The notes under the pieces: model-generated
The model's input: the letters and a program-made list of their open reading frames with translations, nothing else
Database searches by the model: none
Told to the model about the DNA's origin: nothing
DNA from: a virus
Virus record (IMG/VR): IMGVR_UViG_3300036830_000365
Location: 1-20,401 of that record
DNA length: 20,401 nucleotides
Strand: one strand, 5' to 3'
Shown: in pieces, positions 14,795 to 19,559 of the stretch
Numbering within the stretch: position 1 is the first letter of the stretch
Layout: every line of letters starts with the position of its first letter
Made by a program: the position numbers and the translations under genes

Positions 14795-15168
14795 TTCGGT
14801 GTCCTCCGGTTCCACGAATGGAACTCCCGTCGAGAACGGCGTTCGGCAAGCCGCGCGGCCAAGTCGCGGAGCAGGTAGCGGCGCTCGGTCCCGGCGGTGA
14901 TTCTGATGCGCACGGCCCCGCGCTGCACCCAACGGCTCATCGTGCCGCGCGGAACACCGAGGCGCATCGCCTCGGCCCAGGTGATCCATCTCGACAGCGG
15001 ATGAGGCGCCCTCGGCCCGGTGCAGCGGTCGAGGTGCTGCACCAGGTCGGCGGCGGTGGTCTGCGTCTCGCAGCTCGGGCACACGACGGACGGCTCGCGC
15101 TGGCGGTCGAGGGCGACGCGCTGCTTCTGAGGCACGGTCAGGCGGCGGTAGTCGTCCGCCTTCGCCAT
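14791..15168 (-). CDS. Zinc-finger plus helix-turn-helix DNA-binding protein
   Basis: This encodes 125 residues from ATG at 15168, which forms a TGATG overlap with the DUF1064 gene; a GTG two codons upstream is possible. Residues 30-49 carry CPSCETQTTAADLVQHLDRC, a C-x2-C...H-x3-C zinc-finger-like element. Residues 61-108 (WITWAEAMRLGVPRGTMSRW, VQRGAVRIRI, RRYLLRDLAARLAE) look like a MerR/excisionase-type winged helix-turn-helix with a recognition helix near 75-82. It probably binds DNA and may be a late regulator since it precedes the structural genes, but this is inferred from position only. Confidence 0.6.
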   Translation of the reverse strand: MAKADDYRRLTVPQKQRVALDRQREPSVVCPSCETQTTAADLVQHLDRCTGPRAPHPLSRWITWAEAMRLGVPRGTMSRWVQRGAVRIRITAGTERRYLLRDLAARLAERRSRREFHSWNRRTPK

Positions 15169-15542
15169 CAGCACGCGGCCTCGGCATTGATCTCGTCCAC
15201 CGACCAGCCGCCGCCGTCCTTCTTCCGCCGCCGGGACACCTGGAAGAATCGGTACGGGTGGAGCTCGGCGGCGACCTTGATCTTGACCCGCCCCGTCGAC
15301 TCGACGAACCCCTTCACCTCGAAGAAGTGGATCTCGCCGTCGGGCATCAGCACGCGGAAGTCGGGCAGATACCAGGTAGCGTCGGCGAGGCGGAGGCGCT
15401 CGACGCCAAAGTCCCAGCGCACGATCTCGCCCTTGGCCTTGCGCTCCTCGAGGACGGCGGAGAAGCCAGCCTCGTCGCGGTTCATGTCCTTCCGCGGCCC
15501 GCGCTGGTGCCAGCGGCCGCGCACCGGATGGATAGCGTTCAT
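15168..15542 (-). CDS. DUF1064 PD-(D/E)XK nuclease-like phage protein
   Basis: This encodes 124 residues from ATG at 15542 (ATGA overlap with the upstream gene). MNRDEAGFSAVLEERKAKGE supplies a conserved Glu near residue 32; ATWYLPDFRVLMPDGEIHFF and EVKG give P60-D61 and E75-V-K77, the D and E-x-K of a PD-(D/E)XK nuclease fold; RVKIKVAAELHPYRFFQV follows, with the K-rich helix typical of DUF1064. The family is common in phage replication modules and is thought to process DNA branches, but its exact role is not settled. Placement between a nucleotide pyrophosphatase and a DNA-binding protein supports a role in DNA metabolism. Confidence 0.8.
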   Translation of the reverse strand: MNAIHPVRGRWHQRGPRKDMNRDEAGFSAVLEERKAKGEIVRWDFGVERLRLADATWYLPDFRVLMPDGEIHFFEVKGFVESTGRVKIKVAAELHPYRFFQVSRRRKKDGGGWSVDEINAEAAC

Positions 15543-15838
15543 CCGGCCTCCCTGGCGATGAGGAACAGCAGGCAGCTCGCCGCGTGCGCTAGGTGGTGAC
15601 ACCCACTCTCGGGGTCGAGGATCTCGCCGTCCCACCACGCGGTCATGTGGCGCACCGCGGCGTCGTAGTAGCGCCGGCGGTGATCGGCGACGAGCTGCCA
15701 GTTGTCGATCCCGTACTTGTCGGCGCCGAACATGAGGACGCGCACCACCGCGCGGATCCCGCGGCTCGGCAGCAACGAGTACTTCTCCTTGCCGGCGTCG
15801 TGCTTCTCGCCGGTCGGTGCTCGGAGCAGGCTCGTCAC
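15539..15838 (-). CDS. dATP/dGTP diphosphohydrolase N-terminal-like protein (DUF5664)
   Basis: This encodes 99 residues from GTG at 15838 (GTGA overlap with the helicase-loader-like gene). The motif series EKHDAGKEKYSLLPSRGI, VLMFGADKYGIDNWQLV, RRRYYDAAVRHMTAWWDGE, LDPESGCHHLAHAASCLLFL is the signature of DUF5664 proteins. These are all-alpha NTP-pyrophosphatase relatives; acidic and His residues (D46, D69, E77, H81, H82) could bind metal. Related enzymes remove pyrophosphate from purine deoxynucleotides and help phages reshape nucleotide pools. No adenylosuccinate-synthetase-like purZ gene is visible, so a 2-aminoadenine genome is not implied. Confidence 0.85.
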   Translation of the reverse strand: MTSLLRAPTGEKHDAGKEKYSLLPSRGIRAVVRVLMFGADKYGIDNWQLVADHRRRYYDAAVRHMTAWWDGEILDPESGCHHLAHAASCLLFLIAREAG

Positions 15839-16203
15839 TCGTCGTCCTCCCCGGGCACGCGGTCGTGCCTGCGCGCCTCGGCCTCCTGCTTCCGCTGGTG
15901 CCACTTCGCCAGCAGCCCGGCGACCGCGACGCGCACCTCTGGCTGCGTGGCGCGGAGTAGCGGCGGGATGTCGTCCGGCGGCCCAGGCCTCGGCGCCACC
16001 GCCTCGACGCGCCCGCGCAACTCGGCGATCGTCGGGAACCTCGGCGACGACCGCATGTGCGCGAGCGCAGCTCGGCCAACGTCGGCCGCTCTCACGTCGG
16101 ACAACCCCTCGCGGTACGCCTCGCGCACGGCGTCGTCGATGACGGCGAGCTGGTACGCGCCGCTGAGCTTGCTGAGGAGGGCGTCAACCTCGCGTGCATT
16201 CAC
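15835..16203 (-). CDS. Probable helicase loader, G39P-like
   Basis: This encodes 122 residues from GTG at 16203 (GTGA overlap with the initiator-like gene). It is mostly helical; the key segment is DDAVREAYREGLSDVRAADV then RSSPRFPTIAELRGRVEAVA, where an F-P-T-I-A-E-L motif at the end of a helical bundle is characteristic of the SPP1 G39P family (about 126 residues), which loads the replicative helicase onto initiator-marked DNA. The C-terminus is charged and probably disordered. Its place immediately after the initiator-like gene, like lambda O-P or SPP1 38-39, supports the role. No helicase gene is in the window, so it may recruit the host helicase. Confidence 0.55.
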   Translation of the reverse strand: MNAREVDALLSKLSGAYQLAVIDDAVREAYREGLSDVRAADVGRAALAHMRSSPRFPTIAELRGRVEAVAPRPGPPDDIPPLLRATQPEVRVAVAGLLAKWHQRKQEAEARRHDRVPGEDDE

Positions 16204-17417
16204 GGTTTTTCCTCCGCGAGCGACATCGCCCGCAGTTCTGCCGGGGAGTAGCCTCTCCGCCGGCCGTTCGTTGGCGCGCGCGTCGGCGGCAGCGTCGGGG
16301 CCTTCAGCAACACGGTGACCTTCTCCGCGAACGCCGGGATCGTCGGTCCACGCGTGTCAAAAACGAACGGGTCCGGTTCGTCGAAGAACCGCTGCAGCGC
16401 GCCGAGCAGCCGAGCACTGTCGTACTCCGTCGGCAGTCGCTTCAGAAACCTCCGGTCACGTGCATGGTGGTGCTGGTACGGCAACCCGAGGCGCGCCCGG
16501 TGCAGCTCGCAGAAGCGAGCCTCCACAGCCAGCACGCGGTTGCCGGGATCCCCCGGGGGTGAGCAGCATGGCTTGGGAGCAGACGGCGCGGCCGCGCCCG
16601 TCCCGAGAACCAACTGCAACCCCTCAGCCGGGGACGTTTTCGCGGTCGCGCGAGCGGCCGCAATATCTTCCGGATCGGATCGGTCAGGCACGGATCGGTC
16701 AGGCACGGAGTGACCGGTCACAGTTTGTGACGCGTCACGCGTGTTGTGACCGCTGTCGGCGAAGGCCATCGACCCTCGCGCGATCACGTCCTTGACCATC
16801 TCCAGGAGTTCCGGAGAGGCGGAGAACCACTCACCTTTTTCTCTATACTGAGAGAATCGGTGATGTAGGGCCTTCTCGCAGGCAAGCGAACCCTGGGCCG
16901 CCGCGAGCACGACCAACTTGTCCGGCCTGCTGGTCTGCAACCCCACGAGGCGCTTGGCCAGGTCGTCGGCGCGGCCGATCTTTATCGGGCCGCCGTGCTC
17001 CGACTGGATGAAATAGATCACCGTCTCGCGCTGATCTGGGTCTAGACCAGCCCGGATCATGTCGCGGCGGCGCAGCCGGCTTTCCTGCTGCCTGACGGTG
17101 CCGGACTGGCTCGCCTCCTGCGCCTCGATGAAATTGCGCACGACGAGGCTTCGGTCGCCATTCTGCAGTTCGACGCAGCCGTCCTCGATGAGGACGGGGA
17201 GCGCTCGCCGGACAACCTCCTCCGGCATGCGAAGGAGTTCCGCAAGGCCACGCCATCCTCCGGATGCGAGTCCACGGCTTCCCAGGTCGAGCACTCCGAT
17301 TCGATCCACCTTGCGCAGAATAAAGACGAGGAGGGCTCGCGCCTCCCAGCACATGATCGCCCAGTCGGTGGTGTCCCGCGTGTAGATGCGGACGTAGCGC
17401 TCGTCGCCCCAGTTCAT
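16200..17417 (-). CDS. Replication initiator-like winged-helix protein with embedded GIY-YIG (T5orf172/MUG113-like) domain
   Basis: This encodes 405 residues from ATG at 17417 (ATGA overlap). Residues 1-118 (YVRIYTRDTTDWAIMCWEAR, ALLVFILRKVDRIGVLDL, GLAELLRMPEEVVRRALPVL, NFIEAQEA, QQESRLRRRD) are the winged-helix N-terminus seen in phage replication or replisome-organizer proteins. Residues 132-211 (VIYFIQSE, PIKIGRADDLAKRLVGLQTS, CEKALHHRFSQYREKGEWF) match the T5orf172/MUG113 branch of the GIY-YIG fold, with E181 as the usual acidic residue. A repetitive linker at 222-260 carries the VPDRS repeat. Residues 300-375 (RFLKRLPTEYDSARLLGALQ, FFDEPDPFVF) look like a C-terminal initiator segment. 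Whether the nuclease domain is active is unknown. Confidence 0.72.
   Translation of the reverse strand: MNWGDERYVRIYTRDTTDWAIMCWEARALLVFILRKVDRIGVLDLGSRGLASGGWRGLAELLRMPEEVVRRALPVLIEDGCVELQNGDRSLVVRNFIEAQEASQSGTVRQQESRLRRRDMIRAGLDPDQRETVIYFIQSEHGGPIKIGRADDLAKRLVGLQTSRPDKLVVLAAAQGSLACEKALHHRFSQYREKGEWFSASPELLEMVKDVIARGSMAFADSGHNTRDASQTVTGHSVPDRSVPDRSDPEDIAAARATAKTSPAEGLQLVLGTGAAAPSAPKPCCSPPGDPGNRVLAVEARFCELHRARLGLPYQHHHARDRRFLKRLPTEYDSARLLGALQRFFDEPDPFVFDTRGPTIPAFAEKVTVLLKAPTLPPTRAPTNGRRRGYSPAELRAMSLAEEKP
16676..16705. repeat. Tandem 15-bp direct repeat (two copies) in initiator gene
   Basis: CGGATCGGTCAGGCA occurs perfectly at 16676-16690 and 16691-16705, followed by CGGA as the start of a third copy. 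It encodes the VPDRS-VPDRS repeat in the linker of the initiator. Phage origins of lambda type carry direct repeats inside the initiator gene, so this may be part of an origin. Confidence 0.75.
16710..16751. repeat. Two perfect 12-bp palindromes plus half-site; candidate origin iterons
   Basis: GTGACCGGTCAC (16710-16721) and GTGACGCGTCAC (16727-16738) are both perfect palindromes of the form GTGAC-SS-GTCAC, with starts 17 bp apart. A GTGACC half-site follows at 16746-16751. Together with the adjacent 15-bp tandem repeats they form a 76-bp cluster in the linker-coding part of the initiator-like gene, the place where lambda-type origins lie. The function is inferred. Confidence 0.55.
16831..16863. 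repeat. AT-rich interrupted inverted repeat near the candidate origin
   Basis: Arms TCACC...TTCTCT (16831-16844) and AGAGAA...GGTGA (16851-16863) flank a 6-nt spacer, with a 3-versus-2-nt bulge inside each arm. The stretch is unusually AT-rich for this window and encodes part of the GIY-YIG segment (HRFSQYREKGEW). It is about 80 bp from the palindromes. It could be a DNA-unwinding element or a trace of acquired DNA. Confidence 0.4.
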
Positions 17418-18391: not shown

Positions 18392-18922
18392 CTATGGGTT
18401 CCAGATCGTGCCGGCGTCGCGGAAGGCGCGCCGGAAAGTGGTGGCGCGGCGGCCCCAGTAGCAAATCGCAGAAGCGAACGGCGCTGGCCCGTCCGCACCG
18501 ACGAAGCGGAGTCGGCCGCGCCAGAAGCACACGGTGGCGTCGACGATGTTGTCCTGCCACCACACGGTGCTCGTGTCGACGGGCACGAGCGCGATCACCT
18601 CGGCGCCGCGTTTGGCCTCGGCGCGGCATTTCGCGGTCCACGGGTCGAGCGAGCCGCGCGAGTAGGGCGGGTTGGCAAAAACGAGGCCGGGCGTGCGGGT
18701 GATGGCGAGGAGCGCGCACCAGTCCTGCGCCAGGCCGTCGACGATGCACGCCTCGCGCATGGAGACGCGCTCGACGCAGGTGACGAGCGCGCCGGTCGGG
18801 TTCGCGCGCGTCGTGCATGGGTCGAGCGCGATGGGAGCGACCTGGCGCACGCGGTCGAGCACGACGGCGGGGGTCTGCCAGTCGTCCTTGCCGATGACGT
18901 TCTGCGCGGCGAGCACGGTCAC
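18392..18922 (-). CDS. Phage DNA N6-adenine methyltransferase (Dam-type)
   Basis: This encodes 176 residues from GTG at 18922 (GTGA overlap with the HNH stop). It has the compact layout of the phage DNA_N-6-adenine methyltransferase family: DWQTP at 14-18, LDPCTTRANPTGA at 33-45 in place of a classical SAM motif, the catalytic FANPPYSRG at 82-90, the VPVDTSTVWWQD segment at 113-124, RGRLRFVG at 136-142 and PFASAICYWG at 148-157. Length is normal for the family. It would methylate adenine in phage DNA, protecting it from host restriction or from the adjacent HNH nuclease. The target site cannot be read from the sequence. Confidence 0.93.
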   Translation of the reverse strand: MTVLAAQNVIGKDDWQTPAVVLDRVRQVAPIALDPCTTRANPTGALVTCVERVSMREACIVDGLAQDWCALLAITRTPGLVFANPPYSRGSLDPWTAKCRAEAKRGAEVIALVPVDTSTVWWQDNIVDATVCFWRGRLRFVGADGPAPFASAICYWGRRATTFRRAFRDAGTIWNP

Positions 18923-19182
18923 GCGACCTCCGAGAGCGGCTTGGCGCCGCGGGCGAGGTTGCAGCGCTGGTGCGCCAGCCGCAGGTTCGGCAGCACGGTG
19001 AGCCCGCCCTTCGAAGCCGGGATGACGTGGTCGAAGGTGATGTAGTCGCCGCTGCGCTCGTCGCGGACGTGCCGATCGAGCGGCTCACCGCACAGGTGGC
19101 AGCGGTCGCCGTCGCGCGAGAGGAGCGCAGTGATGCGCCGGCCGCGTGCCTTGCGGCGGAAGTCCACGCGAGCCTTCGCCAT
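18919..19182 (-). CDS. HNH endonuclease
   Basis: This encodes 87 residues from ATG at 19182 (TGATG junction with the zinc-finger gene). A basic N-terminus (MAKARVDFRRKARGRRITAL) is followed by CHLCGEPLD (C28, C31), then ITFDHVIPASKGG with the HNH D51-H52, LPNLRLAHQRCN with N66 and H71, and a closing Cys74. Both zinc pairs and the catalytic His are present, so the enzyme looks intact. Small HNH proteins are encoded near terminases in many phages and can help DNA packaging; here the gene is further upstream, paired with a methyltransferase. Confidence 0.93.
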   Translation of the reverse strand: MAKARVDFRRKARGRRITALLSRDGDRCHLCGEPLDRHVRDERSGDYITFDHVIPASKGGLTVLPNLRLAHQRCNLARGAKPLSEVA

Positions 19183-19559
19183 CAGGCGGCCTCCGTCGAC
19201 GACTTCACCGACTCGAAGTACCCGGCGTGCTCCGTCGCGTCGGCGATCCCGTGCACATCCCGCAGGTGTTCCGTGGCCTTCGCCGGCGCGACGAGGCAAC
19301 CGCAGCAGACCCGCGGCCCGTAAACGACGCTGGCGAGCAGGCAGCGCAGGTACTCGCCGGGCTTCTCTCGGCCGAGACGTTGCTGACCTCGGTTGCCGGG
19401 GCGCGGCGAGTTGCGCCGTCGCTCCTGCGCGCCACGGAGCGCGTAGCGTCGTCCAGCGCAGACGCGGCACTCGAACGCCCGACCGTCGGGGGCCTTGGCG
19501 AGGCGGTTGAACTCGGCGAGCGGACGCTCGGCACCGCAGTTCGTGCAGGTCTTCGTCAT
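19182..19559 (-). CDS. Zinc-finger protein, 125 aa
   Basis: ATG at 19559 follows a strong SD (GGAGG, 7-nt spacer). The N-terminus CTNCGAERPLAEFNR...FECRVC gives two CxxC knuckles (C5, C8, C31, C34), a zinc ribbon of the kind found at the front of HNH proteins. The middle is basic (residues 40-66). The C-terminal part has CCGC (85-88) with H98 and H103, in the order VCCGCLVAPAKATEHLRDVH, resembling a second C2H2-like site. It lacks an HNH core of its own. It directly precedes the HNH gene with a one-base overlap, so the two may act together or descend from one split gene. This is inferred. Confidence 0.75.
   Translation of the reverse strand: MTKTCTNCGAERPLAEFNRLAKAPDGRAFECRVCAGRRYALRGAQERRRNSPRPGNRGQQRLGREKPGEYLRCLLASVVYGPRVCCGCLVAPAKATEHLRDVHGIADATEHAGYFESVKSSTEAA

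Follow-up and report, generated by a model that had tools for sequence, protein, structure and literature searches.

Initiators of the lambda O type, whose genes contain the origin, combine a DNA-binding N-terminus and in-gene repeats with a C-terminal half expected to contact the helicase, are followed by a loader or helicase gene and, in their usual form, have no nuclease domain. Odn of phage ICP1, which joins an initiator DNA-binding domain (RepA_N) to a T5orf172 nuclease, is a weapon against satellite origins that cuts those of PLE in an iteron- and E180-dependent manner (PMC8263062). The T5orf172 homing endonucleases of ICP1- and T5-like phages have genes of their own, commonly located near replication and other essential genes, and in most cases carry DNA-binding domains of the Zn-finger kind (CapR/DUF723/DUF4397) (PMC10448857). 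In the literature searched, we found no description of a GIY-YIG domain within an initiator.

The gene for the protein described here lies on a linear piece of viral DNA of 20.4 kb in IMG/VR (the whole stretch analysed, a fragment hereafter called the window), whose structural genes, specifying a lambda-type terminase, portal, capsid, tail sheath and tape-measure-like protein, point to a contractile-tailed phage. The replication-initiator-like gene, at 16200..17417 on the minus strand, is an intact ORF encoding 405 residues, with an in-frame GIY-YIG domain and a family context that is set out below. Its ATG overlaps the stop of the upstream ORF (ATGA) and its own stop overlaps the start of the next gene (GTGA), and these 4-bp overlaps with both neighbours make frame and start credible. 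Three other minus-strand genes in the region are worth recording: an HNH endonuclease gene ~1.5 kb upstream of the initiator (18919-19470; PF01844, E=3.6e-9), which is another homing-type candidate of the early region; a dATP/dGTP diphosphohydrolase-type gene two genes past the initiator (15539-15904; PF18909, E=1.5e-30), which may bear on modified-base metabolism; and a likely Holliday-junction-resolvase-type gene formed by the final 124 residues of frame 15168-16079 (phrog_190, E=4e-14).

That residues 132-211 (16785..17024, minus strand) form a T5orf172/MUG113 domain, as the preliminary description had proposed from the motifs IYFIQ, KIGRA, RLVGLQTS, CEKALHHRF and GEWF, is borne out in full. 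Every motif is found, the coordinates correspond exactly to these residues, and both Pfam profiles give strong matches above their curated cut-offs, MUG113 (PF13455) at residues 146-209 with E=4.2e-11 (43.7 bits against 22.3) and T5orf172 (PF10544) at residues 133-212 with E=4.9e-8 (33.8 bits against 20). The protein also matches PHROG 8130 (E=3.7e-20), with the GIY-YIG domain lying mid-profile (434 positions). An AlphaFold2 model built on a 44-sequence alignment contains two well-predicted and separate domains, a winged helix (residues 24-93) and a GIY-YIG-type fold (residues 133-214), the latter composed of β133-139, β145-150, α153-161, β168-175, α178-187 and α202-214 with pLDDT 93-97. When the whole model was used for a PDB fold search, winged-helix regulators alone were found, none at E≤0.001, and a GIY-YIG entry was absent among the matches listed, probably swamped by the multi-domain query. 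An NCBIfam search returned nothing useful, and the matches in PADLOC were all weak ones to PDC-S57 (E=0.0015), a candidate that has yet to be characterised.

Across all 22 aligned domains, which include those of the window, of relatives L013 and L037 and of the much-diverged L044, there is no variation at Y135, K146, G148, R156, E181, H185 or E196-W197-F198. The catalytic-type set (Y135, K146, R156, E181 and H185) is thus complete in the window protein, for which nuclease activity is predicted. Between the window and L013, identity is 54% in the GIY-YIG domain, 54% in the winged helix and 26% in the C-terminus. A further family member, L133 (4001-5266), keeps a degenerate GIY-YIG domain within an initiator-loader-DnaB operon; E181 is replaced there by A, K146 by R and G148 by S, so that the domain looks dead, in an operon that is intact.

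The N-terminal region (residues 1-118; 17064..17417, minus strand) comprises the winged helix, modelled with pLDDT 92-97, and a conserved FIEAQEA..RxRR helix. The first 125 residues of the window protein have no significant Pfam or PHROG match, and neither this region nor the C-terminal region alone gave a tblastn match in named phages. Relatives of the N-terminal region were recovered from IMG/VR in increasing numbers with a single sequence (8), an alignment (33) and a second alignment (55), identity to the eight viral relatives being 45-63%, and GTDB genomes, among them MAGs of Myxococcota, Burkholderiales and Chloroflexi, yielded six. It is these relatives that identify the family. The PHROGs annotated 'replication initiation protein' include phrog_1408, matched by L004 (the same gene as L024; E=2e-13), and phrog_1032, matched by L009 (the same gene as L041; E=5e-12); initiator PHROG 2447 is matched among the relatives as well, and L022 weakly matches Phage_rep_org_N (E=0.009). 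Directly downstream, often with an ATGA overlap, at least 21 of the 39 distinct members have a gene for either the helicase DnaB or an AAA+ loader of the DnaC/IstB type, and these include the GIY-bearing L037 and L044. The 405-residue protein is a member of a phage replication-initiator family characterised by an origin-binding-type winged helix, a repeat array in the DNA that encodes its own linker and an adjoining helicase or loader gene. The placement of the GIY-YIG domain within a phage winged-helix initiator, also part of the preliminary description, is supported by the winged-helix model and by the initiator PHROGs and operon context of the relatives. In the L013 and L037 contigs, the family N-terminus occurs just once, so that the initiator at work there is apparently the fused form.

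The distal part of the protein is less readily assigned. Residues 222-289 (16551..16754, minus strand) are predicted to form a disordered linker (pLDDT<50), and residues 290-405 (16203..16550, minus strand) a helical region (helices 291-310, 318-327, 334-346 and 360-372; pLDDT mostly 60-86) that we infer to be the end contacting the helicase or loader. This region has no Pfam or PHROG match in the window protein, and its suggested resemblance to the ends of known initiators has found no support from profiles. The next gene (15835..16203, minus strand), which encodes 122 residues, is a possible helicase loader: it matches phrog_2289 ('helicase loader') weakly (E=0.076), and in a pairwise comparison it is 28% identical (E=2e-4) to the gene in the same position in L029, which itself matches phrog_2289 with E=6.6e-7. 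A phmmer comparison with ORFs downstream of the relatives gave no match for this gene, and a recognisable DnaB is absent from the window, which is a fragment.

The DNA encoding the linker contains an origin-like array (16678..16750). Two copies of GATCGGTCAGGCACG, at 16678 and 16693, lie ahead of a cluster of GTGAC/GTCAC motifs at 16710, 16717, 16727, 16734 and 16746, and these motifs, within 16710-16750, form the palindromes GTGACCGGTCAC and GTGACGCGTCAC plus one further half-site. This clustering exceeds what the amino-acid sequence alone gives (synonymous shuffles, P=0.0025) and is common to the family: a GTGAC/GTCAC cluster lies inside the gene in 38 of 39 members, with a density of 8.9 motifs per kb in the gene against 2.1 in the flanks. 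The clearest case is L013, in which three 45-bp repeats contain paired GTGACC-N-GTCAC palindromes. The cluster usually starts around nt 330-400 in GIY-less genes and around nt 630-705 in GIY-bearing genes, a shift that approximates the length of the insert. By analogy with the organisation of lambda O genes, these arrays are putative origins. The lowest-GC 40-mer of the initiator gene (16825-16864; 40% against 66%) falls within the part encoding the GIY-YIG domain, ~75 nt from the array, and is a possible unwinding element.

The insert is rare and scattered within the family. A GIY-YIG HMM detects the domain in five of 64 distinct members (the window, L013, L037, L133 and L044, the last from a Polyangiaceae MAG), the five positives having E≤4e-15 and the next best sequence E=0.42; a search of Myxococcota genomes brought no fused member to add to L044. 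The usual form is therefore the one without a nuclease domain (59 of 64 relatives), as the preliminary description held, and the fused architecture, found in so few members and dispersed over the tree, is not a fixed property of the family. Of the two outcomes that would have told against the preliminary description, a family-wide fixed architecture and a missing GIY-YIG match, neither was thus seen. The position of the domain, after the winged helix and ahead of the array, is identical in all five GIY-bearing members. On a winged-helix tree based on 116 columns, each of the five is a label change of its own, and well-supported branches force four or more of these changes. Grouping the window, L013, L037 and L044 in one clade is rejected (AU test, p=1.5e-5), whereas grouping the window with L013 is not (p=0.136), and since the GIY-YIG domains of these two are sisters (support 99/97), they may share one capture. 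With 116 columns, repeated gain can be told from repeated loss or from domain shuffling in part at most.

Particularly instructive is the comparison of L037 with L018, L022 and L035, which have homologous initiator-loader-DnaB operons (identity 55-64% in the winged helix, 33-35% in the C-terminus, 54-60% in the loader and 63-76% in DnaB) differing by the ~105 residues of the GIY-YIG domain. Presence and absence at one site in homologous alleles, as is typical of homing, is thus seen both in this comparison and in the use of one slot by five of 64 members. Homing genes are also free-standing or intron- or intein-encoded, which is not so here, the GIY-YIG domain being an in-frame part of one ORF. 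Elsewhere in the family, a free-standing GIY-YIG gene (L095; contig IMGVR_UViG_3300015192_000002, 55197-55406) lies ~2.3 kb downstream of the GIY-less initiator L028.

The same pairing exists outside the family. When viral structures were searched, the top match (E=1.2e-12, spanning 428 columns) was p19 of Myxococcus phage Mx8 (NP_203433; PHROG 8130), annotated as a replication initiation protein, in which a winged helix, a GIY-YIG domain, a linker and a C-terminus follow one another and whose gene is directly followed by the DnaC-like p20. Mx8 p19 shares this domain order with the 405-residue protein but has a winged helix of the RIRSIKPxFF family (phrog_16167/12556), which the alignment of the window family does not match. 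A repeat search found no GTGAC-type array in p19, and no published description of its fusion was found. Most other GIY-YIG relatives are small stand-alone proteins in varied locations. In three instances, a stand-alone T5orf172 gene immediately precedes an initiator gene or shares 4 bp with it, the initiators being of three different kinds: in L068/L091 with a one-base gap, in L089 (549-848) through a GTGA overlap with an RIRSIKP-type initiator (845 onward) and in the Streptomyces linear plasmid pSCL1 (L178:2480-4053), where the GIY-YIG gene overlaps an initiator-like HTH gene with internal 16-bp repeats (GAGTCAAAATGACTCA), which is followed by a gene for a DnaB-like ATPase. Two candidate fusions to HNH domains were discarded. 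In Bordetella phage IFTN5, UOK17325 (OM293954.1, L111:1501-2331), annotated as an HNH endonuclease, matches initiator PHROGs alone, and since no HNH domain was found in this RIRSIKP-type initiator, the label looks like a misannotation; in JBD44, a real HNH gene adjoins the initiator and is unfused.

The reading that we prefer, and hold tentatively as something just short of probable, is that a homing-derived nuclease is tethered to the winged helix of an initiator and directed at related origins or GIY-less initiator genes, initiation itself being independent of the nuclease. The GIY-YIG domain would descend from free-standing homing-type nucleases living beside replication genes, and the winged helix would bring it to GTGAC-type arrays, where it could cut the origins or initiator genes of related replicons, be they co-infecting phages, satellites or GIY-less alleles. 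Such a cut would either remove the competitor or convert its initiator gene to the GIY-bearing form, and the carrier's own copy might escape either through the insert, which parts its array from the ancestral junction, or through differences in iterons and spacing. The nuclease would be dispensable for initiation, since the operon is complete both in GIY-less relatives and where the domain is dead, and the recurrent joining of GIY-YIG domains to initiators suggests a use against the replication origins of rival phages. Exclusion of rivals and capture of a homing-type domain, both suggested in the preliminary description, are still candidates and probably grade into each other, a continuum of the kind documented for ICP1 Odn. 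A bolder proposition, which we consider possible but rather doubtful, is that the initiator is also an origin-directed nuclease, with origin, binding protein and nuclease in one gene, that it destroys or converts the origins of GIY-less relatives and that this arrangement arose repeatedly in different initiator families; if true, the replication module itself would be both weapon and homing element. An insert of purely selfish nature, spreading into GIY-less initiator alleles, decaying as in L133 and being lost with no benefit to the phage, is unlikely but credible. It would suit the scattered distribution, the one dead copy, the free-standing GIY-YIG relatives that adjoin initiators and the common location of T5orf172 homing genes near essential genes (PMC10448857). 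It sits less easily with a domain translated within an essential protein, with no intron, intein or separate gene, and conserved equally with the winged helix between the window and L013; nor would it predict fusion to two different initiator families, which suggests that the winged helix is used for targeting.

The domain may also have a non-catalytic role, since L133 keeps the fold without its catalytic Glu, and the strong divergence of L044 could be taken in the same sense. That the fold is generally no more than an extra DNA-binding or spacing element of the initiator is, in our view, quite unlikely, considering that the Y, K, R, E and H residues are intact in the window, L013, L037 and L044 despite drift elsewhere. 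The preliminary description also envisaged nicking of the phage's own origin. The domain would then act on its own array to start or switch replication in a nick-primed or rolling-circle mode, for which its intact nuclease residues and its position next to the array, within one protein and gene, might speak. This idea is now disfavoured, and we regard it as very improbable, because the GIY-less sisters L018, L022 and L035, together with the catalytically dead L133, keep a theta-type loader-DnaB operon, and because 59 of 64 relatives lack the domain. Equally hard to credit is a stand-alone, Odn-like DNA-binding nuclease that resembles an initiator, the true initiator being elsewhere: the window is a fragment and its adjoining loader is weakly supported, but the fused gene occupies the initiator slot of the operon in L037 and L044, the L013 and L037 contigs contain no second member of the family, and the embedded array and long C-terminal region have been kept. 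Homologous operons that differ in the insert (L037 against L018 and L022) make both origin exclusion by initiators and the avoidance of self-cutting directly testable.

Set against known systems, the window family has a lambda O-like organisation, with N-terminal DNA binding, in-gene repeats and, in at least 21 of 39 members, an adjoining loader or helicase gene. Its nuclease domain is of the same family as the T5orf172 homing endonucleases of ICP1- and T5-like phages, but is here an in-frame part of an initiator. Odn and the window protein both have an N-terminal initiator-type DNA-binding domain joined to a T5orf172 GIY-YIG domain, E181 of the window protein corresponds to the catalytic Glu E180 of Odn, and an iteron-type origin, the target of Odn, would by analogy be the expected target here. 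Odn, however, is a dedicated nuclease that stands apart from the replication of its phage, and its RepA_N domain is a copy of that of the satellite it attacks; the window protein has no Pfam match to RepA_N, its winged helix matches initiators of phage families, with no satellite target found, and its nuclease domain is part of a protein that is apparently the initiator of its own phage, with an embedded array and a C-terminal region after it. The pairing itself is already public, and has been for years, in one annotated example (Mx8 p19), and has a well-studied analogue in Odn; what this locus brings to the fore is an Odn-like pairing inside an apparent own initiator, in the same slot, on no fewer than two winged-helix families that are unrelated, together with its occurrence as coupled neighbour genes in phages and a plasmid.
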